NCBI GenBank assembly: GCA_938085105.1
Contig: CALKGK010000005.1
Span: 1-64,000, forward strand
DNA: 64,000 bases
Source: an uncultured Flavobacteriales bacterium
GTDB taxonomy: Bacteria > Bacteroidota > Bacteroidia > Flavobacteriales_D > Sanyastnellaceae
Direction of reading: 5' to 3'
This document shows, piece after piece, positions 3,968 through 42,400 of the stretch. The notes under the pieces were generated by a model. That model searched no databases. It was given only the letters and a program-made list of their open reading frames with translations, and had not been told where the DNA came from. Both the position numbers and the translations under genes were made by a program. Numbering within the stretch: position 1 is the stretch's first letter; each line of letters starts with the position of its first letter.

Positions 3968-5377
3968 TTATTTGATAGTTGATGGGCAAACGTAGTCGCT
4001 CACTTCTACTCCGGCCTCTTTAATTGCCGCGAAGCCGCCTGCTACATCGATAAAATTGTGGATTCCTCTACTCTTTAGAATGGAAGCGGCAATCATGCTT
4101 CTGTATCCTCCAGCACAGTGAATGAAGAAGTTCTCTTCGCTCGGGAAAGCACTGAGGTGATCGTTGAGGTAATCGAGCGGTGTGTTTTCTGCTTGAAGAA
4201 CGTGTTCCGAGATGTACTCACCTGATTTTCTCACATCAAAAACCAAAGACTTTTCTTCCAAACTTCCTTTCCACTCTTCAGCGCTCACTTGGCTTACGGT
4301 GTCGTATTCTTTGGCTGATTTTCTCCAGGTTTCAAACCCACCATCGAGGTAACCAATGGTATTGTCAAAACCTACACGAGACAAACGAGTGATCACCTCT
4401 TTCTCTCTTCCTTTATCAGCGACCAAAAGAATCTCTTGATTTACATCCATCAACAAAGCTCCAACCCAAGGTGCAAAGCCTCCATCAATGCCGATAAAAA
4501 TAGAGCGAGGTACGTGTCCTTTCGCAAAATCTTCCACGCTTCTCACGTCCAAAACAACGGCTCCTGTTTCATTTGCCGCAGCTTCGAATTCGTCAGCATT
4601 CATGGAATGACTCCCTTTTTTGAGCACTTCATCAATGTCAGCATAGCCTTCTTTGTTCATTTTCACGTTGAGTGGGAAGTACTGTGGTGGAGGAAGGAGT
4701 CCGTCGGTCACTTCTTGGATGAACTCTTCTTTGGTCATATCAGCGCGCAAAGCATAGTTGCTCTCTTTCTGTCCGCCAATGCTTCCTACTGTTTCCTTAC
4801 TCAAGTTTTTACCACAAGCTGATCCGGCACCGTGAGCTGGATAAACGATCACATCATCCGCCAAAGTCATCACTTTATTTCGAAGACTATCGTAGAGATG
4901 TCCAGCCAAATCTTCTTGAGTCAAGTCGGCTCCTTTTTGCGCCAAATCTGGTCTACCTACATCTCCTAAGAACAAAGTATCACCGCTAAAGAGTGCGTGA
5001 TCTTTTCCATTTTCATCGCGAAGCAAGTAACACGAACTTTCCATGGTGTGTCCTGGAGTATGCAAAACAACAATGCTCACATCTCCCAATGGGAATACTT
5101 GTTCATCCTTTGCTGTAATTGAATCAAAGCTCGTCGTAGCATTTGGTCCGAATACGATAGGTGCTCCTGTTGCTTTTGCGAGGGTGAGGTGACCACTCAC
5201 GAAATCGGCATGGAAGTGCGTTTCAAAAATGTATTTGATTTTGGCATCGTCTTTCTGAGCGCGATCCAAATACGGTTGTACTTCACGGAGAGGGTCAATA
5301 ATGGCTACTTCTCCTTTGCTCTCTATGTAGTAAGCTCCTTGAGCTAAACATCCGGTGTATATTTGTTCTATTGTCAT
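3968..5377 (-). CDS. CstB-like persulfide dioxygenase-rhodanese fusion
   Basis: 469 residues from the ATG at 5377, preferred over the ATG 30 nt upstream because the protein then begins MTIEQIYTGC as in relatives. Residues 1-230 are a metallo-beta-lactamase-fold persulfide dioxygenase (ETHE1-like): THFHAD at 53-58, TPGHT at 108-111, SGDTLF from 131 and PAHGAGSACGK at 180-190, giving the mononuclear iron ligands and a nearby Cys188. Residues about 255-355 form a rhodanese-like domain without the catalytic cysteine (LLVADKGRE). Residues about 365-460 form an intact rhodanese (HCAGGYRS, Cys421). This three-part order matches Staphylococcus CstB, which turns persulfide into sulfite and thiosulfate. 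The neighbouring exporter could remove the sulfite. Confidence 0.9.
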   Translation of the reverse strand: MTIEQIYTGCLAQGAYYIESKGEVAIIDPLREVQPYLDRAQKDDAKIKYIFETHFHADFVSGHLTLAKATGAPIVFGPNATTSFDSITAKDEQVFPLGDVSIVVLHTPGHTMESSCYLLRDENGKDHALFSGDTLFLGDVGRPDLAQKGADLTQEDLAGHLYDSLRNKVMTLADDVIVYPAHGAGSACGKNLSKETVGSIGGQKESNYALRADMTKEEFIQEVTDGLLPPPQYFPLNVKMNKEGYADIDEVLKKGSHSMNADEFEAAANETGAVVLDVRSVEDFAKGHVPRSIFIGIDGGFAPWVGALLMDVNQEILLVADKGREKEVITRLSRVGFDNTIGYLDGGFETWRKSAKEYDTVSQVSAEEWKGSLEEKSLVFDVRKSGEYISEHVLQAENTPLDYLNDHLSAFPSEENFFIHCAGGYRSMIAASILKSRGIHNFIDVAGGFAAIKEAGVEVSDYVCPSTIK

Positions 5378-5469
5378 TTTTGATTGTATTAAGTGATCTC
5401 GCCCCATTTTCAGGGGACTTTATTTGAACCAGTCCTCACCTGATGTGCTCGGACCTTGTTCTATTTTGT

Positions 5470-6279
5470 TTAAATGAAAAGTTCTTTTCCAATAATGTAA
5501 ACCCCCATGATGAGGACAAACCATCCAAAGCCTTTTTTCAGCTTTTTACCATCGATGTACTTGTTGAGGAAGATCCCTAAGAAGATACCCACGACAGATA
5601 AAGAAGTGAACGACAAGAGGAAGGTCCAATCGATTTCGAGATTTTCTACGTCGCCAATGAAGCCAATCAAGGATTTGATGGCGATGATGAGCAAACTGGT
5701 TGCAACCGCTTTTTTCATGGGTAGTTTTGCGAGCAACACAAGTGCTGGGATAATTAAAAATCCACCACCTGCACCAACGATACCGGTGAGTAGACCAACC
5801 ACAATTCCTTCAAGCACAATCATGGGGTAATTGTATTGTACCTCCCCTTCTTCGCCACCATCGCCGCGTTTGCTTTTCATCATTGAAATGGCCGCAACCA
5901 CCATAATGATTGCAAAGAATACCATGATTGCGATGCTCTTCGTTACAAGAAAATCTCCTACATGGAACAATTCGTCTGGAATGGCCGGAACGATGAATTT
6001 TCGCGTGCTGTAAACGGCAATGAAAGCAGGAATGGCGAAGACAATCGCTGTTTTAAAATCAACCAGACCTTTTTGCATGTTTCGAATGGCCCCCACAAGT
6101 GCCGAAACCCCCACTACGAAAAGTGAATATGCCGTTGCGATGACAGGGTCCAATGCAAGCAAGTAAACCAAAACGGGAACGGTAAGGATGGAACCTCCAC
6201 CTCCAATGAGTCCGAGAACCAGACCGATGAGCAGTGCTCCAATAAATCCAAAAATACCTGCTGTGCTAGTGAGTTCCAT
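5470..6279 (-). CDS. TauE/SafE family sulfite (sulfonate) exporter
   Basis: A 269-residue inner-membrane protein with about eight hydrophobic segments and the internal repeat typical of TauE/SafE: GLIGGGGSILTVPVLVYLL near residues 22-40 and GIVGAGGGFLIIPALVLL near residues 166-184. The family exports sulfite, sulfoacetate or related anions. It is the first gene of the operon leading to the CstB-like protein, rhodanese and SQR, which suggests it removes the sulfite made by persulfide oxidation. The promoter upstream carries the palindrome at 6347-6360 and a perfect -7 element. The family is secure; sulfite as substrate rests on context. Confidence 0.88.
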   Translation of the reverse strand: MELTSTAGIFGFIGALLIGLVLGLIGGGGSILTVPVLVYLLALDPVIATAYSLFVVGVSALVGAIRNMQKGLVDFKTAIVFAIPAFIAVYSTRKFIVPAIPDELFHVGDFLVTKSIAIMVFFAIIMVVAAISMMKSKRGDGGEEGEVQYNYPMIVLEGIVVGLLTGIVGAGGGFLIIPALVLLAKLPMKKAVATSLLIIAIKSLIGFIGDVENLEIDWTFLLSFTSLSVVGIFLGIFLNKYIDGKKLKKGFGWFVLIMGVYIIGKELFI

Positions 6280-7858: not shown

Positions 7859-8546
7859 ATTCTTCAACCTTCCTCAAATAAAATGACTGCTCAAAGTAAT
7901 TGTTGTAGGTCTCCCCAATACTCTCATAGCCAGCGGTGAGTACCATGTAGTTGCCGTAAACTTCAGCCTTTATCGGAACAAGACGATAATAGGGCGTGAA
8001 GTATGTCAGTAGCGCAATCCATTCATGCAGTGGCTTTATATCCATTGCTGCGCATCCCATCTGCAATACTCCGTGTTCCTTGGTTTCTTCATGATTGGCC
8101 CTTTCCTCTAAGAGGAGCTCATCTAGAACAGGAATACCTATGCTATAATACACCGAATGGTTTTGCTGAAAAATAAGCTCATAGCTCTCCTCTTGATTTT
8201 TCAAAGCAGAAGCGTTGTTGTAAGCTTGATGCTCCTCATATTCCGCCAAGTTCGATAGTAAGCGCTCAAAAGCTCCTTGGGCAGTGCTGTCCAGAAGAGC
8301 GGCAGCCGATTTCAATCGTTCTTGCGTACTGAAAACCTCCCCCATAACGGTTTGATAATCGCGATGTTCAGTAGGGGTTCCGGGAGCAAAATCCTCGGTC
8401 GACCTCCCTCCTGCTGCATCAGCTTCAAGGCTCAAGGCCGTTATTTTGTGCTGAAGGGATCGAATCTCACACCTCAAAGCATCTTCTTGGGCAAAAGTCA
8501 AAGCGCTCAAGCTCAGAGATAAAAAAAGCAGTACAAGGTCTTTCAT
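7857..8546 (-). CDS. Secreted protein of unknown function
   Basis: About 229 residues from the ATG at 8546, chosen because it gives a clean signal peptide (MKDLVLLFLSLSLSALTFAQ). An ATG at 8624 would add 26 polar residues in front. After the signal there is a short, probably helical or coiled-coil segment (EIRSLQHKITALSLEADA), then a central region rich in Glu, Ala and Gln, and a C-terminal beta-rich part ending FEQSFYLRKVEE. I do not recognise a family. No T9SS tail and no lipobox, so periplasmic or outer-membrane associated. Divergent from the delta-60 repeat gene. Confidence 0.65.
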   Translation of the reverse strand: MKDLVLLFLSLSLSALTFAQEDALRCEIRSLQHKITALSLEADAAGGRSTEDFAPGTPTEHRDYQTVMGEVFSTQERLKSAAALLDSTAQGAFERLLSNLAEYEEHQAYNNASALKNQEESYELIFQQNHSVYYSIGIPVLDELLLEERANHEETKEHGVLQMGCAAMDIKPLHEWIALLTYFTPYYRLVPIKAEVYGNYMVLTAGYESIGETYNNYFEQSFYLRKVEE

Positions 8547-8641
8547 TTGTGGATTTATTGTTCTCTTTTTTTGGGAGGATTCCAAACTGAAAGGTAGCAG
8601 ATTCTCCTTAGATTCGTAACTCATTTTTAATGCAACACCTT

Positions 8642-10777
8642 ATGAAAACTTTCCCCCACTTATTAACGCTTCTCGCTTTTTTCACCTACTCTCACACCTT
8701 CCTAGCACAAAGCTCGGGTTCACTCGACCCCACTTTTGGAGATGATGGTTTGGTACTCTTGCTCCCAAACGATGATGATAATGTGGCAACTTCACTGCAA
8801 ATTCAAGCCGACGGTAGTATGCTAATTGGTGGATATACGAACAGTCCGATTTTTGGCAAAAACTTTCTCCTCGTGAAACTCAATGAAGATGGAAGCATGG
8901 ACAGCTCTTTTGGTGATGATGGAATGGTGAGCACGGACATTGGTTTGGGGAGCGATGATGTGGCAAATGCCATGGCGCTCGATCTTGATGGAAACATCTA
9001 TTTAGCAGGATATAGTGATGATGGAAGTGACCAAGATGCCTGTGTTGTTAAATACAGTCCAACGGGTGAATTGGACTTGGATTTTGGAACAGATGGAAAA
9101 GTGATAAGTGATTATGATGAGGGGCTGACTGATGAACTGAAGTGCATCGAAATCTCATTGCTTACCGGAGAAATCAACGTTGGCGGAAGTGTGGAAATTA
9201 CCTCTACTCAATCGCGACCAGTGATTGCAAAATATGCTGCCGACGGTACTTTGGTGGATGGTTTTGGAAATGGCGGAGTGGCTTTGATCAATGAAGATCC
9301 CTTCGACACCAATCACCTCTACACCGTTGAAAGCTTAAAAATTCGCCCCAACGGTAAAATAACCGCCGTTGGATGGAAAGACTTCCCCGCCATCAATTGG
9401 AGTGCGGATTACATGAGCATTCGCGTGAATAGTGACGGAACTTTGGACAATACCTTCGCCCAAGATGGTGTGAATACCTACAATGGAAACTTCAATGGGA
9501 ACGACAAAGCTTTTGACCTCATCTTGGAATCTGACGACACCTTCAAGATGGCCGGAGGAGGGTACGTGAACGATTTGAAATACATCTTCACTGGCTTCGG
9601 AATTCAAGCAAACGGAAGTGTTGGCACCTGGTCAGCAGGCAGTGAGTTCAGCGGAATCTTTGACGACGCCATTGCATACGACATCGAGCAAGACAGCCAG
9701 GATCGCTACGTTTTTGCGGGTAGTGTAGGTGATGCAACGAAAGACATTGCCATTGTTCGTTTTGATTCCAATGGAGCGGTGGATGATGATTTTGCTCCTG
9801 ACGGACAAATCCGAGATAATTTTGATTCCAACGATGTTAATGAATTGTTTGCGCTTGGGATTCAAGGAGACGATAAAATTGTGGTTGCGGGGTATTCTGG
9901 GGACGCATTCTTGATTGCGCGTTACTTGGGGGAAGACCAAGCTCAGTTGAATGATTTCGACTTGGCTACCCCTGCGAATGGGAGCAATGACATCAACTTC
10001 AGCGCCATTAACCTCAACTGGACCAATGCCTTTGGAGCAGACAATTATGAAGTGCAATGGGACACTTCAAGCGATTTTGACGCCAATCCACAAAGCGCTA
10101 CCCCAACTGCATCCATTCAACTGGTCACCAACCTACTAAGCGATCAAACTTACTACTGGAGAGTTCGTGCTATTGCTGGAGAAGAAGAAGGAGATTGGAC
10201 CGCCACATGGAGCTTTACGACCAACGGATTAAATAATTTTGAATTGGAGAGTCCGAGCAACGGAGCTGAAGATCAAATCATTTGGAACACCTTGCTTCAG
10301 TGGGAAGACAATCTTGGTTCTGAAGTTTACGAAGTGGAATTTGACACCTCCGTGGACTTTGATCAAGCACCGATTCTTGAAACCGTGAACGAGAGCGAAT
10401 TTCTTTTGGACGACCTCATCACCGCAACCACCTATTACTGGAGAGTTCGAGCGGGTGATGGTTCCAACTTTGGAGATTGGAGCCAAACATGGAGTTTCAT
10501 TACCGAGTTAGGGATCAATGTTGATGAAACAATCAAATCTACATTCGAAACTTACCCCAACCCAGTAGTGGATCAACTCTACATCACAAGCAGTGAAGGT
10601 ATTTCTTCTGTTGACGTTCTCATTACCGATCTTCAAGGGAGAATTGTGCTTAGCGAAGGACGCATCAACGAGGTTTCGAAAATTGATCTATCGTCACTTT
10701 TGAAAGGACACTACTTTCTACAAATCCTTAACGAAGAGGGAAGATTACTGTTCCAAGACAAAATTGTGAAAATCTAA
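8642..10777 (+). CDS. Delta-60 repeat / fibronectin III secreted T9SS protein
   Basis: About 711 residues from the ATG at 8642, which directly starts the signal peptide (MKTFPHLLTLLAFF...FLAQ); an ATG at 8630 is 4 codons upstream. Residues about 28-430 hold repeated delta-60 units of the form GxxDxxFGxDGxV (LDPTFGDDGLV, MDSSFGDDGMV, LDLDFGTDGKV, LDNTFAQDGVN, VDDDFAPDGQI), expected to form a beta-propeller-like surface domain. Two fibronectin III-like units follow (each with TYYWRVRA and GDW). The tail (YPNPVVDQLYI...KGHYFLQIL) is a type A T9SS sorting domain. Surface or extracellular; exact role unknown, possibly adhesion. Confidence 0.88.
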   Translation: MKTFPHLLTLLAFFTYSHTFLAQSSGSLDPTFGDDGLVLLLPNDDDNVATSLQIQADGSMLIGGYTNSPIFGKNFLLVKLNEDGSMDSSFGDDGMVSTDIGLGSDDVANAMALDLDGNIYLAGYSDDGSDQDACVVKYSPTGELDLDFGTDGKVISDYDEGLTDELKCIEISLLTGEINVGGSVEITSTQSRPVIAKYAADGTLVDGFGNGGVALINEDPFDTNHLYTVESLKIRPNGKITAVGWKDFPAINWSADYMSIRVNSDGTLDNTFAQDGVNTYNGNFNGNDKAFDLILESDDTFKMAGGGYVNDLKYIFTGFGIQANGSVGTWSAGSEFSGIFDDAIAYDIEQDSQDRYVFAGSVGDATKDIAIVRFDSNGAVDDDFAPDGQIRDNFDSNDVNELFALGIQGDDKIVVAGYSGDAFLIARYLGEDQAQLNDFDLATPANGSNDINFSAINLNWTNAFGADNYEVQWDTSSDFDANPQSATPTASIQLVTNLLSDQTYYWRVRAIAGEEEGDWTATWSFTTNGLNNFELESPSNGAEDQIIWNTLLQWEDNLGSEVYEVEFDTSVDFDQAPILETVNESEFLLDDLITATTYYWRVRAGDGSNFGDWSQTWSFITELGINVDETIKSTFETYPNPVVDQLYITSSEGISSVDVLITDLQGRIVLSEGRINEVSKIDLSSLLKGHYFLQILNEEGRLLFQDKIVKI

Positions 10778-10855
10778 TCTTCGTGAGAGCAGGATTTTCG
10801 AACAATCCTCCTCTAAGACGCTGTGATCCAATCCTTTACTATGTACTTTCAGTGC

Positions 10856-12115
10856 ATGGGGAAGGTTCATTTGCTTTCTGTTTGTATGCTTATTCGGCGC
10901 TCATTTGCAGGCTCAAGACTTTGTGAATGGTGACTCAGAACACCCCTATGCCGTTACAGCAGCAACTCCTGAAGGGTGGCAATCTGTATCATACAATGCC
11001 CCTTTTTGTTTAGCCAATAATTGGATTACGGCTAGTCTGGACATCACCTCCAGCACTGGCCCAAATTCAAACTCGGGAATCAATGCATTTCCTTCCAGTG
11101 GAAACACATTTGTGAGTGGATTGTATGCAACTAACGACGAGAGTTTACTCTTCTTTCATGAAGGAATCGAACAAGTGGTTTATGGCTTGCTACCGGGGTC
11201 AACATACGATGTTTGTTTTGATCAAGCCATCATTGCTCAAAACTCTGTTAGCGATCGCACGGGCGCTTGGGAAGTGTTTGTCGATAGTACCTCCATTGGA
11301 GTGAGTGAATTAAGTACGAATTACGGATTGGCTTATGGAGATCCTGCCGTAGAATGGGAGTCCCGTTGCATTTCTTTCCAAGCAAGTAGCGACAATCACT
11401 TGATCAGCTTTCTGCCTTGGGATAATGATACGCTCACCCAATTTATTGGCACTGGAAACGCAGGGGCTCTGCGCATGGGCATCGACAAGATTTACATCCC
11501 TCCATGTTACATTCCTGTTGATTTACCGGACACCGTTTTCTTATGTGGGCCGTCTGATTTGGTAGAAGTAGCACCTGTCATACCTCAAAGGAAGCATTGG
11601 GCTCTGGAGCAATGGAACTGAAAGCCTCAATATCGAAATTAGTGAACCCGGTATGTACTCCCTCGAAGCTGCCCTCTTGGCTTGCATTGGAAGGGATTCC
11701 GTGATGGTGGTTGAAATCCCCATACCTACCCCTTCTCGATTCCATAGTATTCACTGAAAGCGCGGAACTGAACATTCAGCTCGAACAGTCGGGTTGCATC
11801 TATGAAACCTCGGCCGATTGGAGTTTTTGCGAATGCAGCTATGAACACGTGATGCCCAACATTTTTACTCCTAATCAGGATGGAGACAATGAAAGCTTTC
11901 GTCCGCTCATCATGACCGGAACATTTGATTTAGAAATGGAAATTTACAACCGCTGGGGCCAATTGCTTTTTGAGAAACAAGGCCTGAACAGTTCTTGGGA
12001 TGGACGACTAGCTGGTGAGGAAGTCGCCGAAGGGGTCTATTACTATGTCGTTCGTAGCAAAGACGCTAGAGGGCGCTGGTACGAAGATCAAGGAATGCTC
12101 ACCTTACTTCGGTAG
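10856..12115 (+). pseudogene. CHU_C-type T9SS surface protein broken by three +1 frameshifts
   Basis: Read in pieces, this locus encodes one protein of about 418 residues. The signal peptide MGRFICFLFVCLFGAHLQAQ needs one G removed from GGGG at 10858-10861. A domain of about 210 residues (DFVNGDSEHPYAV ... MGIDKIYIPPC) is open at 10905-11621. Frame is lost again in CAAA at 11586-11589; removing one A restores PQGSIGLWSNGTESLNI. It is lost a third time in CCCC at 11729-11732. The last open segment (11711-12115) ends with the gliding-motility-associated C-terminal (CHU_C, T9SS type B) domain: MPNIFTPNQDGDN, IYNRWGQLLFE, SWDGRLAGE, GVYYYVV. All three changes are single extra bases in short homopolymers, so it is either true decay or sequencing error. 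Confidence 0.82.
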
Positions 12116-12116
12116 A

Positions 12117-12956
12117 TCAAGGGATGTACTTGACGTCCTTGAAGTCTGGCTTTCGTTTCTCCAAAAAGGCATTCCTACCTTCTTTCGCTTCATCGGTCAT
12201 GTATGCCAAGCGGGTTGCTTCTCCGGCAAAAACCTGTTGTCCTACCATACCATCATCGGTGAGGTTGAAAGCAAATTTGAGCATCTTGATTGAAGTTGGA
12301 GATTTGGCCAAGATTTCTTGTGCCCACTCGTAAGCGGTATCTTCCAACTCGTCGTGTGGAATGGCGGCATTCACCATGCCCATTTCTACCGCTTCTTGGG
12401 CTGAATAATTTCTTCCGAGGAAAAAGATTTCTCTCGCCTTTTTCTGTCCAACCATCTTAGCGAGGTAGGCTGACCCATAGCCACCGTCGAAACTGGTTAC
12501 ATCGGCATCGGTTTGCTTGAAAATGGCGTGTTCCTTACTCGCAAGCGTCAAATCACAAACCACGTGCAACGAGTGTCCGCCACCAACAGCCCATCCCGGA
12601 ACAACAGCAATCACTGCTTTCGGCATGAAGCGAATGAGTCGTTGCACCTCCAAGATGTTCAAGCGTGGCATTCCGTCGTCATCCACATAGCCTTGATGTC
12701 CGCGAGCATTCTGATCACCACCGCTGCAAAAAGAGTACACTCCATCTTTTGTGCTTGGTCCCTCAGCAGAGAGCAAAACCACACCAATATTTACATCTTC
12801 TCTGGCATCCAAAAAAGCTTGATACAATTCTCCCACTGTTTTTGGTCGGAATGCGTTTCTTACATTCGGACGGTTGAAGGCAATTCTAGCCACTCCCCCG
12901 CTCTTTTTATAGGTGATGTCTTCAAACTCTCTTACGGTGGTCCAATTTGCGCTCAT
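12117..12956 (-). CDS. menB: 1,4-dihydroxy-2-naphthoyl-CoA synthase
   Basis: A 279-residue crotonase-fold enzyme that closes the second ring of menaquinone by converting o-succinylbenzoyl-CoA. Characteristic MenB stretches are FNRPNVRNAFRPKTV, FCSGGDQNARG (oxyanion-hole region), VPGWAVGGGHSLHVVCDLT, FKQTDADVTSFDGGYGSAYLA with its acidic residue, and the C-terminal LEKRKPDFKDV. Length is normal for the family. It converges with the frameshifted T9SS gene with only 1 bp between stops. No other men genes are visible here. Menaquinone is the expected electron acceptor for the SQR of this organism, though the two loci are not linked. Confidence 0.95.
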   Translation of the reverse strand: MSANWTTVREFEDITYKKSGGVARIAFNRPNVRNAFRPKTVGELYQAFLDAREDVNIGVVLLSAEGPSTKDGVYSFCSGGDQNARGHQGYVDDDGMPRLNILEVQRLIRFMPKAVIAVVPGWAVGGGHSLHVVCDLTLASKEHAIFKQTDADVTSFDGGYGSAYLAKMVGQKKAREIFFLGRNYSAQEAVEMGMVNAAIPHDELEDTAYEWAQEILAKSPTSIKMLKFAFNLTDDGMVGQQVFAGEATRLAYMTDEAKEGRNAFLEKRKPDFKDVKYIP

Positions 12957-36651: not shown

Positions 36652-38937
36652 TTAATTGAATTGATATTTTAAGTTGATGTTTAGTGTTCTTCCCGGCTCA
36701 GGTGCAAAGAATCGTTGTCTGTTCAGGTAGTCCCAATACTTCACATCAAAGAGGTTCCACAGTTCAAAACCAACAGAGAAACTCGATTTTTTCACTTGGA
36801 ATTTAGAACTGGCTTTAAGTGTGAAGAGGTGGACGGCTTCGGGCGGAAGGCTGACTTCAAGACTTGCATCAAAATGTTGCTGCCGAGCGGTGAATTGATG
36901 TTCTACTGCAAACGAAAGGAGTCCCCATTTTTTGGTTTTTCTTTCATGTTTGATAAAAAGCGTATGCTGAAAAGGCGGGATTTGGGGCAGTGCTCCACCT
37001 TTAAGCTTCTCTGCACGAACAAAGGAAAGGGATTGCCCCACCTGTAATGCATCCAAATAGTAGTTCACGATGGCCTCTCCCCCATAGAAATTCGCATTTG
37101 TTTGCTGCTGATCAAAAACGGGGAATGCACCTCGAATGGTTAAGACCGGTTGGGAGCGTGGATCGAGAAATACATAGTTGTCGATACGATGGTAGTAGGT
37201 GTTGATTTGAACTTTTAGACGATCAAATGTTTTGCTCCCCTGCCACTGGATTTTGTACGCCCGTTCGGTGCGAAGATCAGGGTCGCCATATTCCAGTGCT
37301 GCGGCTCCATGGTGTAAACCCGAGGCAAAAAGTTCGTTCACCGATGGAACTCTACCTAAGGTACTCAGTTCTAGTCGCCATTGGGCATCCTTTGAAATCT
37401 TATTCTCCAGGACCACAGCTGCATTCAGGTTTGATCTTTCTTGTTCCAGCCTTTGAAAGTGGTCGTTTTCCAGCAAAAAGAGTGTTCTACGAAGCACATC
37501 CCAACGAAGGATGCTTTTCAATTTCCACTTTTTATCCCAAGCAAAGACGTGTTGCACGAAAGTAGCCAAGCGTTCTTCCTGGTGATTGGGAATGAAGATG
37601 ACGGCACCATTGGTGTTTTTCATTGTGAATGCTTGAGCAGCAATTTCCCACTTGTTCCGTCCTTCAGACCGCTGCCACTTCAGTTCTGAATTCCACGTGG
37701 TTTTATTGAGCTCCATGCTCGCATTTCCATCTGCATTTCCTCGAATGGCATCAAACTCTTGCCTTTGGTTGAATTGTCTGCCCAAACGAAAGAGCAACGA
37801 CCCTGTTAAGAATCTTTTTTCCTTGAACTTGAATTGAAGAAAGTCGTGAAGCACTTCTTGTCTCGGTAAGTCTAGATCATAGGAAAAAGGAGCTTGAACG
37901 CGCAATTCATCACTCTCAATGGCTGCATTAAGGTCTGTCAAATTTCCAATGTGAGCACCTTGAAAAATGCCTAAGTGCGACTGGAATTGAGCGTAATGCA
38001 GCTCGAAAATTCTTTTCTTGGGCGCGAACTGAAGATCATAGGACCAGTGCATATTTTCTGAGCCTGTATTTCGGAGTGTGCCTAATGGGGTCCGAATATC
38101 TCCACCTTTACTGGTGAACCCTTGCAAACGCCACGAAACTTTTGATCTTTCGTTGCTTTGGTGCATCTCCAAGAAAGCGCTTCCTCTTCGGTCTTGATCG
38201 CTTGTTGAGAGCTGAAAATTCAAGTGGAGTTGATCGTCCTGTTCAAACTTCTTTTTCTTCAGTAAAAGTACCCCTCCCACACCTTCAGCTGAAAGTTGGA
38301 GTGCACACACCTCATCGAGCAAAACAAGCTCATCATAGAACCCTGGAAAAAGTTCTGGTGCGTGCTCCTCTCCCCACTGCTGAGCATAAAGCGGAACACC
38401 ATCCACCCCAAGTTGGAGGCGGGAACCGGAGTATGCCCTAACCAAGGGCTTCCCTGTATTGGAACCCGATGATTTCCTTCGAATCGCAGGTAAAGCAGCA
38501 CCGATGGAACTGAAATCCCTTGCTGCTGTTGATGAAACGCCAGAGAGCTCAAGGCGCTCCATGGTTTTGACTTCGGTCGACTTCACTTCACTCACCAGGA
38601 CTGGGGCAAAGAAATACTTGGAAAGCACCAATTCATGCTCCAAATACAAATTTTCTAGTCCTGTGGTATTGAGACGGAGGGTTTCGTACCCCAAAAAGGA
38701 AACATAGATCGCAATACTATCAGCACAAGGAAGTTGCAATTGATACTCTCCTTCTTCGTTGCTTGCTGTTTGAAACTCTGCACCATTCGTAAGAACACGA
38801 ATATGGGCAAATTCCAAAGGAGCAGCCGTTTTCTGCTCACTTACAAAGCCTTGAATAAGAATGGTACATACACCTTCTTGGGCTGAAGTACGCGTGAAGA
38901 TGACGCCAAAGAGGGCCACCAAAACAAAGTACTTCAT
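36652..38937 (-). CDS. TonB-dependent receptor with carboxypeptidase-like N-terminal domain
   Basis: A 761-residue outer-membrane receptor. Signal peptide at residues 1-19 (FTRTSAQE). Residues about 24-105 form a CarboxypepD_reg-like beta-sandwich (ILIQGFVSEQKTAAPLEFAH ... LGYETLRLNTTG). A plug domain follows (about 120-235; ALPAIRRKSSGSNTGKPLVR, VDGVPLYAQQWGEEHAPELF). The barrel fills the rest and ends LNINLKYQFN. A His-rich small-protein gene lies upstream and a lipoprotein gene downstream, and the shared promoter carries a palindrome, which suggests a metal-regulated uptake operon (zinc or copper are candidates). The ligand is not proved by sequence. Confidence 0.88.
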   Translation of the reverse strand: MKYFVLVALFGVIFTRTSAQEGVCTILIQGFVSEQKTAAPLEFAHIRVLTNGAEFQTASNEEGEYQLQLPCADSIAIYVSFLGYETLRLNTTGLENLYLEHELVLSKYFFAPVLVSEVKSTEVKTMERLELSGVSSTAARDFSSIGAALPAIRRKSSGSNTGKPLVRAYSGSRLQLGVDGVPLYAQQWGEEHAPELFPGFYDELVLLDEVCALQLSAEGVGGVLLLKKKKFEQDDQLHLNFQLSTSDQDRRGSAFLEMHQSNERSKVSWRLQGFTSKGGDIRTPLGTLRNTGSENMHWSYDLQFAPKKRIFELHYAQFQSHLGIFQGAHIGNLTDLNAAIESDELRVQAPFSYDLDLPRQEVLHDFLQFKFKEKRFLTGSLLFRLGRQFNQRQEFDAIRGNADGNASMELNKTTWNSELKWQRSEGRNKWEIAAQAFTMKNTNGAVIFIPNHQEERLATFVQHVFAWDKKWKLKSILRWDVLRRTLFLLENDHFQRLEQERSNLNAAVVLENKISKDAQWRLELSTLGRVPSVNELFASGLHHGAAALEYGDPDLRTERAYKIQWQGSKTFDRLKVQINTYYHRIDNYVFLDPRSQPVLTIRGAFPVFDQQQTNANFYGGEAIVNYYLDALQVGQSLSFVRAEKLKGGALPQIPPFQHTLFIKHERKTKKWGLLSFAVEHQFTARQQHFDASLEVSLPPEAVHLFTLKASSKFQVKKSSFSVGFELWNLFDVKYWDYLNRQRFFAPEPGRTLNINLKYQFN

Positions 38938-38974
38938 GAAAGAAATGAAAATTGATGAATAATAAGCGGAGAGC

Positions 38975-39277
38975 TTACATCACCGGCGGGGCTCGAGAGG
39001 GATGAAGTGAATGGAGTTCTGAAAGGTACAAGGCAGCGAACCGCTCACTAGGGTTTGGACCGAAGGACGATGCCCTATTTCTCCCATCCTCTTGGGTGTC
39101 TTGAAAAAGATGAATCAGCTCAATTTCGCACAGGGCACACGCTTCATTGATTGCTTGAAGTGCGAAAAAAGCATCCTGATTTGAATCATCATGTGATCCA
39201 GCATCAGCAATTTCTGTGTGATCATGCTCGTGGTGGTGCAAGTAAGCCACTGGAGTAATTATCCAGAGCACCAACAA
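38975..39277 (-). CDS. His-rich membrane-anchored small protein, start uncertain
   Basis: About 100 residues if it begins at the TTG at 39277. A membrane segment (LVLWIITPVAYL) leads to HHHEHDH, then a Cys pair in EACALCEIELIHLF and a C-terminal SRAPPVM. The frame stays open upstream to about 39320 (KWSEKISVHIALLL), but contains no ATG. An ATG out of frame by one base at 39309 would give M-S-E-K-I-S-V if one base were removed. A frameshift near the start, or a non-ATG start, is therefore possible. First gene of the TonB-receptor operon, 37 bp before it. The histidines suggest metal binding. No family name known. Confidence 0.6.
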   Translation of the reverse strand: MLVLWIITPVAYLHHHEHDHTEIADAGSHDDSNQDAFFALQAINEACALCEIELIHLFQDTQEDGRNRASSFGPNPSERFAALYLSELHSLHPSRAPPVM

Positions 39278-39320
39278 AAGAGCGATGTGAACCGATATTT
39301 TTTCAGACCATTTGATAAGA

Positions 39321-39356
39321 CAAAGCTAGTTAAAGCGAAGCTTCACCTATTGAAGC
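39321..39356 (-). promoter_or_regulatory. Promoter and palindromic operator of the TonB-receptor operon
   Basis: On the minus strand TAGCTTTG (39321-39328) is a perfect -7 element. Twelve nt upstream is the palindrome GCTTCA-N5-TGAAGC (39340-39356), positioned over the -20 to -36 region, where a repressor would block polymerase. A metal-sensing repressor (Fur/Zur type) is one possibility. Confidence 0.5.
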
Positions 39357-39438
39357 AATCACTAAAAAAAAACAATTGTGAAGAATTCACCTCTCCTTGA
39401 ATCCTTCTGTTATCGCGTCCAAGTGCTTCAGGGAGGTA

Positions 39439-39804
39439 TCAAATTACACTCTTCAACCATTCTCCAATTTCTCGAAGGTCCTGAATATTCATCGGTTTTG
39501 AAACGAAACGTTGAACCTTGGTGTGGTATTCTTTTTCCAGCAGTGGAAGGTCGTTAGAATAGGCACTGCAAATCTTAATGGGCAAGTTTTCAAAACGTTT
39601 CTGAAGCATGGGTACAATCGAAAATCCGTTGCCATCGGGAAGATTTAAATCCAAGATTGCAGCATCGAGATCTGTCTCCGACAATATCGTTTTTGCTTGT
39701 TTTAAATCATGAGCTGGATAAGTTTGAAATCCGATTTTTTTCAATACCACATCAAACAGCATTACGATGTCCTTCTCATCATCCAATATCAATACCTTCT
39801 TCAT
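39439..39804 (-). CDS. Stand-alone response-regulator receiver protein
   Basis: A 121-residue CheY-like domain with all conserved residues: acidic pair in LILDDEKD (Asp8, Asp9), phospho-acceptor Asp52 in AAILDLNLPDGNG, Ser/Thr position in KICSAYS and Lys in RFVSKPM. There is no output domain. Its ATG overlaps the TGA of the histidine-kinase remnant by 4 bp, so the two were translationally coupled. Because the kinase has lost its phospho-accepting part, this receiver may lack a cognate input. Confidence 0.85.
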   Translation of the reverse strand: MKKVLILDDEKDIVMLFDVVLKKIGFQTYPAHDLKQAKTILSETDLDAAILDLNLPDGNGFSIVPMLQKRFENLPIKICSAYSNDLPLLEKEYHTKVQRFVSKPMNIQDLREIGEWLKSVI

Positions 39805-40226
39805 CCTTTACTTCGTTTATGCTTAAAGAAAATTTGAAAACGACTTCCTTCGCCCAGCTTTGAATCCACAAGAATCCGAGCTCCATGATCGCGCAGAACG
39901 TTTTGTGTGGTGGTCATGCCCAAGCCCAAACCAGTCGACTTCCCAGTTGAAAAGTGCTCAAAGAGGTTTTCCAACTGTTCTGCACTCATTCCTATTCCAT
40001 TGTCTTCAAAACACAATTGAATCTCTCCTTTCTCTTTAATTTCGTTCACAGAAATACACAATACCGGTTCTTCAACGGTTTCCATCGCTTCCACAGCATT
40101 GGTGAGGATGTTTAAAAAGACGATGGACAAGTGTTTGGCGTCCAAATCCAGGTGAGGGTCGGCATTCATTTCAATCTTCAGGCCCACCTCCCGGAGAGTA
40201 AGCCGGTCTTGAATTAAACCTACAGC
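39801..40226 (-). pseudogene. Histidine kinase, C-terminal ATPase remnant
   Basis: Only the HATPase domain remains. The open frame runs from about 40226, where it is closed by TAG, through LIQDRLTLREVGLKIEMN to the N box (NILTNAVEAM), the G1 box (FEDNGIGM), the F region (LFEHFSTGK) and the G2 box (GLGLGM), and ends KHKRSKG. No phospho-accepting histidine or sensor part is present, and no start codon lies before 40187. The break falls within a few bases of the break in the oppositely oriented sigma-54 regulator. Both facts suggest a deletion that removed the divergent 5' halves of both genes. Confidence 0.85.
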
Positions 40227-40880
40227 CTATTTCTCGATGAAATCGGAAACCTGTCCTACCCTCACCAAGTTCAGCTCCTAAGAGCTATACAGGAGAGAGT
40301 GGTTCGACCAATTGGGAGCGATGATCTCATTCCAGTGGATGTTAGAATCATTGTAGCGACCAATGATTCTTTAAGAAAAAGTATGGATGATGGTGACTTT
40401 CGAGAAGATCTCTATTTTAGGCTGAACGAATTTAGCATCCAACTTTCTCCTTTGCGAGAACGACCAAAAGACATTCCCTCCTACGCTGAACACTTCCTCA
40501 AATTGGCCAATGAACGACTAAATAAGAACATCAAAGGGTTTGACGAAGAATACCTCTCCCACTTAATGAGCTACCCTTGGCACGGAAACCTAAGGGAGCT
40601 CAAAAACACTGTTCAGAGAAGTGCCCTGATGAGTAAAGGAGACCATGTACCTGCGTCAGTACTACCCCAAGAGATCAAAAAACCCCAATTGATTCAAAGC
40701 AACAAAATGGTAGAGTTAGAGACTTTTTCCGATCTCAAAACAGTGACTGAACACGCAGAGCGGAGAGCCATCCAAAATACCTTGGAACGAACGCAACACA
40801 ATAAATCAAAAACGGCTGAACTCTTGGGAATCGACCGAAAGACAATTTACAATAAGATGAAGCAGTTGGGGATCAATTGA
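40218..40880 (+). pseudogene. Sigma-54-dependent (NtrC-family) regulator, C-terminal remnant
   Basis: The frame is open from 40218, just after a TAA. It begins SLFLDEIGNL, the Walker B strand of an AAA+ sigma-54 activator. Then follow VRPIGSDD, RIIVATNDSLRK (sensor I), FRLNEFSIQLSPLRERPKDI and YPWHGNLRELKNTVQR (sensor II). A Fis-type helix-turn-helix ends the protein (NKSKTAELLGIDRKTIYNKM). The Walker A motif, the GAFTGA loop that contacts sigma-54 and any receiver domain are missing, so it cannot remodel polymerase. An internal GTG at 40299 could give a short DNA-binding protein, but a functional product is doubtful. Last 8 bp overlap the next gene. Confidence 0.85.
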
Positions 40881-41550
40881 GCACCGATAGTTTACCGAAA
40901 TACAGGATATCTTTACTCGACTTCATTGCCTCTTTGAAGATTTTTGAAAATTCAATTTCTAACTTATCTCGCTTATCTAACTTGAAGCTTTTACCAAGAG
41001 GGACAGGTCTTCCGTCTACATAAACACAGGTCCATTCCACCTCTATGGACTCGCGATTATCGCTTCTAAAGTCGAATTTCATTTTGCTGTCACCCAAACT
41101 GATGTCAGAATAAAATTTCTCCTGCGCAAAAACATTCATTTGGTCATATTGTTCCCGGTTGAACCTCACCCCTATTTCTACGGAATTGCTATCAATGGAC
41201 TGAACAACAATGGTCAATAAATCACCGTCTTCCTCGAAAGTATCATCATCAACATGCACAATTGGCAACTCATAATCTGCCAACAAATAGCTTGAGTATT
41301 CTTCTTCGACTACCCGAAAGTTCTCAGCATCTCGGAAATTTTCCTTCATGAAGGTTTTGATTGCTTCCTCTTCTTCTTCGCTATGGTCCATGCGAACATT
41401 GGCACTAACAAAAAGGGCTTTATCGCCTTTTTTAGCCACCTCAATCAAGTCGGTAGAAAATATTTCAAATTCAAGGTTTACGGAGCATGCTGCGAGTAAA
41501 AATACAAGCATCACAGAAGCTAGGCTTAGGGTTGATTTCTGGGATTTCAT
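40873..41550 (-). CDS. Lipoprotein of unknown function
   Basis: A 225-residue protein with a lipoprotein signal (MKSQKSTLSLASVMLVFLLA then AC, Cys22). After it come NLEFEIFSTDLIEVAKKGDK and a Glu-rich helix (HSEEEEEAIKTFMKENF), then mixed strands, with TCVYVDGRPVPLGKSFKL and a helical end (EIEFSKIFKEAMKSSKDI). No family recognised. The region just upstream of the ATG contains GTTAAA repeated three times (41553-41571), which may reduce folding at the start. It ends inside the sigma-54 remnant by 8 bp, convergent. Confidence 0.65.
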   Translation of the reverse strand: MKSQKSTLSLASVMLVFLLAACSVNLEFEIFSTDLIEVAKKGDKALFVSANVRMDHSEEEEEAIKTFMKENFRDAENFRVVEEEYSSYLLADYELPIVHVDDDTFEEDGDLLTIVVQSIDSNSVEIGVRFNREQYDQMNVFAQEKFYSDISLGDSKMKFDFRSDNRESIEVEWTCVYVDGRPVPLGKSFKLDKRDKLEIEFSKIFKEAMKSSKDILYFGKLSVLN

Positions 41551-42240
41551 TAAAGTTAAAGTTAAAGTTTACGTTATGCGCCGAATATAAGGATTGATTT
41601 GCTCAGTCAGGTACTGTGAATACTCAAAAGTCATGAACAGCCAAGCAGAAAAGCACATGAGCACTCCTTGCGTTTCTATATCTTGTTAGCAGTCGAGCTC
41701 CTACTCTGAAGATTTGTTCTTATTCGTCCGAAGTTTCCATTCCATAGTATTTCAGCCAATAAACCCTTTTGGAACTTGCAGGAAATCTCAAAAACATCTG
41801 CTGCAGAATAAAACCTGAAATGTTGTTCCGAACAGTAACATATCCAATCGGGAAGGGATTGCAAATAAAAAACTTAAGCTCAAGTTTCTCAATAATTATA
41901 CATCTCCACGACCTCTGTTTACCGCATCCAAATTCCCATGGGAAGTGTAGCATCGGCACTTATGTAAGAAATATAATAAGGTGGGATTTTGCAAAAGTCT
42001 TCGATGAGCAGTCAAAAACGAGTTTAGTCCTACTTACGGTATTATAGCATGCTTTATTATGAAACAAGACCTTGATCCGTTCTATTCTTGGCTGAAGCGA
42101 TCCATCTGAACAAAATGCAAGCGAAATTACCTGCACTACCATCGAGCAAAAACTGGCTTTATCAGAGGAGTTCCCAGGCGAAAGGCTATTGCAAAGTTCA
42201 AGTTGAGCGACCGATTGAGAAAAGAAAATTTCTCTGAAAT
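41551..42240. other. Region of about 0.7 kb without convincing genes
   Basis: Open frames here are short (up to 92 codons at 41769-42047) and lack convincing ribosome-binding sites, signal peptides or familiar motifs. No tRNA, hairpin array or insertion-sequence end is seen. Together with the gene remnants at 39.8-40.9 kb this suggests decayed accessory DNA; the codon content is too degraded to name a parent gene. Confidence 0.5.
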
Positions 42241-42272
42241 AAAAAAACCGACTGGCTTATCCAATCGGTTTT
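42241..42272 (-). terminator. Terminator of tRNA-Ser
   Basis: On the minus strand AAAAAACCGATTGG-ATAAG-CCAGTCGGTTTTTT: a strong stem with one mismatch and a T run, 7 nt beyond the tRNA 3' end. Confidence 0.85.
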
Positions 42273-42278
42273 TTAAGA

Positions 42279-42364
42279 GCGGAGACGGAGGGATTCGAAC
42301 CCCCGGTACCTCGCGGTACAACGGTTTTCAAGACCGCCGCATTCGACCACTCTGCCACGTCTCC
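42279..42364 (-). tRNA. tRNA-Ser (UGA anticodon)
   Basis: An 86-nt class II tRNA. Acceptor stem GGAGACG / CGTCTCC, discriminator G, D-arm TGGCAGAGTGGTCGAATGC, anticodon stem GCGGT-CTTGAAA-ACCG with TGA at 34-36, a long variable arm (GTACCGCGAGGTACC) and the T-arm GGGGGTTCGAATCCCTC. The CCA end is not encoded. It reads UCA and related serine codons. Confidence 0.95.
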
Positions 42365-42368
42365 GCGG

Positions 42369-42400
42369 CAAAGGTAAGTCAATTATTTCTTTTAGGTCAA
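42369..42400 (-). promoter_or_regulatory. Promoter of tRNA-Ser
   Basis: On the minus strand TTGA, a 20-nt spacer and TACCTTTG (42369-42376), a perfect -7 element 4 nt before the mature 5' end, so the transcript would have almost no leader. Confidence 0.55.

Follow-up and report, generated by a model that had tools for sequence, protein, structure and literature searches.

Probable deletion scar in a receiver, sigma-54 regulator and histidine kinase locus of an uncultured Flavobacteriales bacterium

Introduction

How does a sensor-regulator locus come to hold a kinase and a regulator that lie head to head, each without its front half, beside a receiver gene that is whole? The question is raised by positions 39,439 to 40,880 of the window, the whole stretch of 64,000 nucleotides analysed here (contig CALKGK010000005.1, positions 1 to 64,000), which belongs to an uncultured Flavobacteriales bacterium of the Sanyastnellaceae. 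The original prediction explained the arrangement by a single deletion that had removed the divergent promoters and both N-terminal halves. Our analysis indicates that the window probably carries a deletion scar, left by the loss of at least about 1.75 kb from a locus of a receiver gene (REC), a sigma-54 response regulator (RR), and a histidine kinase (HK), with HK-REC on the minus strand and a divergent RR on the plus strand in the probable ancestor. None of the titles listed by a literature search concerned this locus, and neither the scar nor the type of locus is claimed to be new to the literature.

Remnants of the kinase and the regulator

The HK remnant (39801..40226, minus strand) was identified by its reading frame, Pfam, and alignment with relatives, and it consists of the C-terminal HATPase_c domain only. 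A TAG stop at 40227-40229 is followed on the minus strand by 141 stop-free codons down to 39801, in which the HATPase_c profile (PF02518) is matched over positions 2-109 of 111. Pfam found no HisKA or sensor domain in the piece, so that the reduction of the kinase to its ATPase part, as originally predicted, stands. The first HK residue retained corresponds to residues 338-367 in the long kinases of relatives, the shorter kinase frames of G053, G081, G141, and G288 giving lower numbers, and about 340 kinase codons are absent as estimated from the lengths in relatives. Identity to the HATPase_c domain of relatives ranges from 36 to 45%, with G143 as the top match (E 2.8e-29) and G265 as the third among the relatives (399 genomes). 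The HisKA histidine is required for kinase function. Without a histidine to phosphorylate, the remnant would not be able to work as a kinase.

The RR remnant (40227..40880, plus strand), likewise identified by frame, Pfam, and alignment, is the C-terminal part of an NtrC-type sigma-54 response regulator from Walker B onward. Its frame is preceded by TAA at 40215-40217, is open from 40218, and ends with a stop at 40878-40880; the earliest start codon listed for this ORF is a GTG at 40299, behind Walker B. Only the last 72 positions of Sigma54_activat (97-168 of 168) are matched, followed by AAA_lid_14 and HTH_8, so that Walker B, the lid, and the Fis-type HTH are kept, as the prediction had it. 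The AAA+ domain of the piece is incomplete, Walker A and GAFTGA being absent and the GAFTGA of relatives preceding the first window column, and the N-terminal receiver domain of RR is absent by frame and by Pfam search. The first residue retained lies at about 237-260 in relatives, with an estimated 245 or so regulator codons absent from lengths in relatives. Matches at E<=1e-42 within the order share 41-56% identity with the piece and occur in 45 of 399 genomes, compared to 3 of 114 genomes in the family (the window's, G013, and G081). Walker A and GAFTGA are required for the function of a sigma-54 activator. The RR remnant is thus predicted to be unable to hydrolyse ATP or to remodel sigma-54 polymerase. 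As rpoN is still in the genome, the loss of the pathway would be local. The sigma-54 promoter pattern had 50 matches in the window, with 58.2 expected by chance.

In 500 mononucleotide shuffles of 39801-40880, the minus frame reached 141 codons or more in 3 and the plus frame 218 codons or more in none, and as evidence for both remnants the family matches outweigh frame length by far. Reading frames inside both remnants are undamaged, and their GC3 (0.458 and 0.450) is ordinary, 35 large ORFs having 0.471 +/- 0.038; both features agree with an event of fairly recent date. A foreign origin by composition was rejected on the same GC3 values.

Behind the kinase piece, the complete single-domain receiver gene REC (39439..39804, minus strand, 121 aa; ORF list and Pfam) covers positions 1-108 of 111 of Response_reg (PF00072), a full receiver domain, and is as intact as had been claimed. 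Its start and the HK stop share 4 bp. The DDE, LDLNLPD, and KP columns are conserved in an alignment of 17 REC rows, including the residue that we take to be the acceptor Asp, and the acidic pair and the conserved Lys are present. The best REC match in the order (399 genomes), and the sole one at E<=1e-14, belongs to an intact operon of the REC-RR-HK type in G309. Of the three genes, REC alone could still give a functional product.

The joint and the missing halves

The homologies of HK and RR meet back to back at 40226/40227 (joint, 40224..40229, by alignment), with no spare base and a possible overlap of 0-3 bp. The original placement of the two breaks within about 10 bp of each other is thereby confirmed and narrowed to about 0-3 bp. 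The alignment comprised 26 RR rows from 33 loci with RR (L132, L167, L168, L181, L182, L183, and L232 unused) and 29 HK rows from 30 loci with HK (L181 unused). On the RR side relatives read GGTLFLDEIGNLSYENQ and the window reads LFLDEIGNLSYPHQ from 40227, while on the HK side relatives read AIDFCQDRIELLNV and the window AVGLIQDRLTLREV from 40226 downward. Judged by the lengths of RR and HK in relatives, at least about 1.75 kb of DNA would be missing here. An invertible (phase-variable) segment was also considered and set aside; the repeats within 38900-42400 are all short (12-25 nt) and imperfect. One inverted pair of 12 nt (40151-40162 / 40255-40266) flanks the joint, but the region has 12 such pairs in all.

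The assembly, which consists of 99 contigs and is rated 99.01% complete, contains neither of the N-terminal halves. The sigma-54 interaction domain was found at 10 places in this genome, 3 of them strong and full-length and 6 weak (<=36.1 bits), and the window RR piece is the sole strong partial domain. In the assembly, no N half of the domain occurs outside three proteins that have the whole domain. With the N-terminal part of the RR of G013 as query, no orphan RR front half was found among 36 places in the assembly; apart from the three sigma-54 proteins and the edge of the window piece (40224-40301), its matches were of the receiver type. The N-terminal part of the HK of G058 gave no orphan HK front half among 9 places, its matches being partial, mostly to the receiver part of the query, and in other frames.

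Flanking genes and the sister genome

The block is bordered on the left by a small gene (38975..39277, minus strand) ahead of a TonB-type receptor gene, also found in G001, and on the right by a DUF7424 lipoprotein-like gene (40873..41550, minus strand; Pfam) that is conserved in place in G001. The genus sample consists of two genomes, the window's and G001, which are collinear to the left and to the right of the block over the TonB-type receptor, the small gene, the DUF7424 region, the tRNA region (tRNA-Ser at 42279-42364 in the window), the GWxTD gene, and a glycosyltransferase. No REC, HK, or RR is present in G001 between the small gene (L141 ORF 10100-10393) and the DUF7424 region (frame end 9971). 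The gap there is about 130 bp, a site defined by BLAST pieces and ORF positions, since the MAFFT alignment is forced across the absent block. The block may have been lost in G001 or gained in the lineage of the window. Since G001, the nearest genome, is without the whole block, the ancestral order cannot be read from a close intact copy.

These flanks also bear on an artefact, in which the two ends would be joined in the assembly only and the front halves of intact genes would be unassembled or unbinned. A genome in 99 contigs leaves room for this, and a chimeric contig would likewise show a head-to-head junction inside two genes. Against it stand the failure to find the front halves in so complete an assembly, the collinearity of the outer neighbours with G001 on both sides, and the absence of a long repeat at the joint, which make an assembly joint unlikely.

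Some observations on the neighbourhood stand apart from the scar. The TonB-type receptor gene of the window, with the gene of the small, His-rich, Cys-containing protein ahead of it (36652-39277 together), is only 46% identical in G001, compared to 80% for the GWxTD neighbour. In G053, which belongs to another family, L135 (G053:C122:1000-12000) carries near its REC-RR-HK locus a gene at 8234-9097 that is 86% identical to window 12117-12956 and looks like a member of the enoyl-CoA hydratase family, and at 9098-10972 a TonB-type receptor that shares 30% identity with window 36652-38937.

Intact loci in relatives and the ancestral order

Relatives carry the same set of REC, RR, and HK, full-length and in one neighbourhood, so that the REC, the HK piece, and the RR piece derive from one kind of locus. 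The 35 relative loci comprised 19 with RR then HK co-directional, 6 convergent, 3 divergent, 5 with RR only, and 2 with HK only. In the co-directional loci REC mostly lies directly ahead of RR, and many f9 genomes have a second kinase between. In the divergent loci (G143, G239, and G265), HK stands opposite a series made up of a transporter-like gene, REC, and RR, the receiver thus lying upstream of RR and behind the transporter-like gene, whereas in the window it lies behind HK. Trees of the RR and HK pieces placed the window without firm support. Two loci from named genomes (L049 and L050, out of 80 loci) were examined outside the 35: L049 has an RR without a recognised HK, and in L050 a weak HK match is convergent with the RR.

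The window order, HK then REC with a divergent RR, occurred in 0 of the 35 loci, so that the ancestral order is derived from the window itself. HK, with REC behind it, would have been read from the minus strand and a divergent RR from the plus strand. One deletion would have taken the sensor and HisKA of HK, the intervening DNA, and the stretch of RR that holds the receiver, Walker A, and GAFTGA. The remaining HK and RR would be non-functional and the pathway dead. The three divergent loci, which include the best HK match, G143, count for the deletion. The single deletion originally proposed thus retains its one joint, its missing halves, and full-length counterparts in relatives, while its divergent ancestor fits less well, with 3 of 35 loci divergent and REC elsewhere in these. 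Comparison with relatives did yield divergent HK / RR loci; it yielded none in the window order, and it sets a lower bound on the deleted length.

The commonest order in relatives is the co-directional one, from which an inversion followed by a deletion could also be drawn, since breaks inside RR and HK of an RR-HK-REC locus produce exactly such a head-to-head joint of C-terminal parts. This route needs two events where, given the coincident breaks, one deletion in a divergent HK-REC / RR locus suffices. It also has to accommodate DUF7424 in its conserved place after the RR end, and an HK directly followed by REC, which was seen in none of the co-directional loci; we consider it improbable. 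A simple inversion as a one-step account was rejected, as the RR end is followed by DUF7424 where the HK front half would be expected.

As a separate observation, genes resembling MscS-type channels, small lipoproteins, or Dps/ferritin were called by eye near intact REC-RR-HK loci (L129, L130, L131, L133, L134, and L135), neighbours that hint at a role in envelope or osmotic stress.

A parallel loss in G288

A second reduced locus was found in G288, a genome that shares the genus label g55 with several intact loci and was not among the RR matches in the order. In L234 (G288:C12:250000-260000), positions 5062-5731 hold a complete REC and then a 102-aa, ATPase-only C-terminal end of HK. Both flanks of the G288 locus are collinear with those of G182 and G200, but compared to G200 it is short of about 4 kb (L173 3953-7920) in which RR, a second kinase, and most of HK lie. 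This is an independent deletion at a locus of the same type. As in the window, REC is complete, HK is cut to its ATPase part, and the RR front half and more are lost; unlike in the window, REC stands ahead of the HK piece, both on one strand, and RR has left no remnant. The parallel deletion suggests that the REC / RR / HK locus is dispensable in the order.

The G288 locus also retains, independently, the pair that might be a small working module, formed by REC and the bare ATPase domain, with an RR piece in the window that may still bind DNA through its HTH. Undamaged frames and the overlap of 4 bp between REC and the ATPase piece agree with such a module. HK matches at E<=1e-19 occur in 22 genomes, only 2 of which have such a short frame, in a different gene order, and the genus holds no conserved short form, G001 being without the block, so that a working module is very unlikely. 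Equally unlikely is the wider proposal that REC / sigma-54 RR / HK loci repeatedly shrink to a receiver and a bare HATPase (window and G288), retained as a regulatory module without a histidine or output of its own. Most likely, the locus represents an ordinary loss of a regulator, the broken leftover of a sensor-regulator system with nothing new in it. The deletion scar remains a clear example of a sensor-regulator pathway lost at one joint with its neighbouring genes intact, and it cautions that the two signalling genes which annotation would place here are probably without function.

Comparison with known systems

With the NtrC-type sigma-54 response regulators (bacterial enhancer-binding proteins), the window RR shares the C-terminal part of Sigma54_activat, the AAA lid, and the Fis-type HTH, but it is without the receiver, Walker A, and GAFTGA. 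With the histidine kinases linked to the regulators of relatives (e.g., G143, G058, and G238), presumably of a Receiver-PAS type, the window HK has HATPase_c in common, but it is without about 340 N-terminal residues, including the phospho-histidine part.
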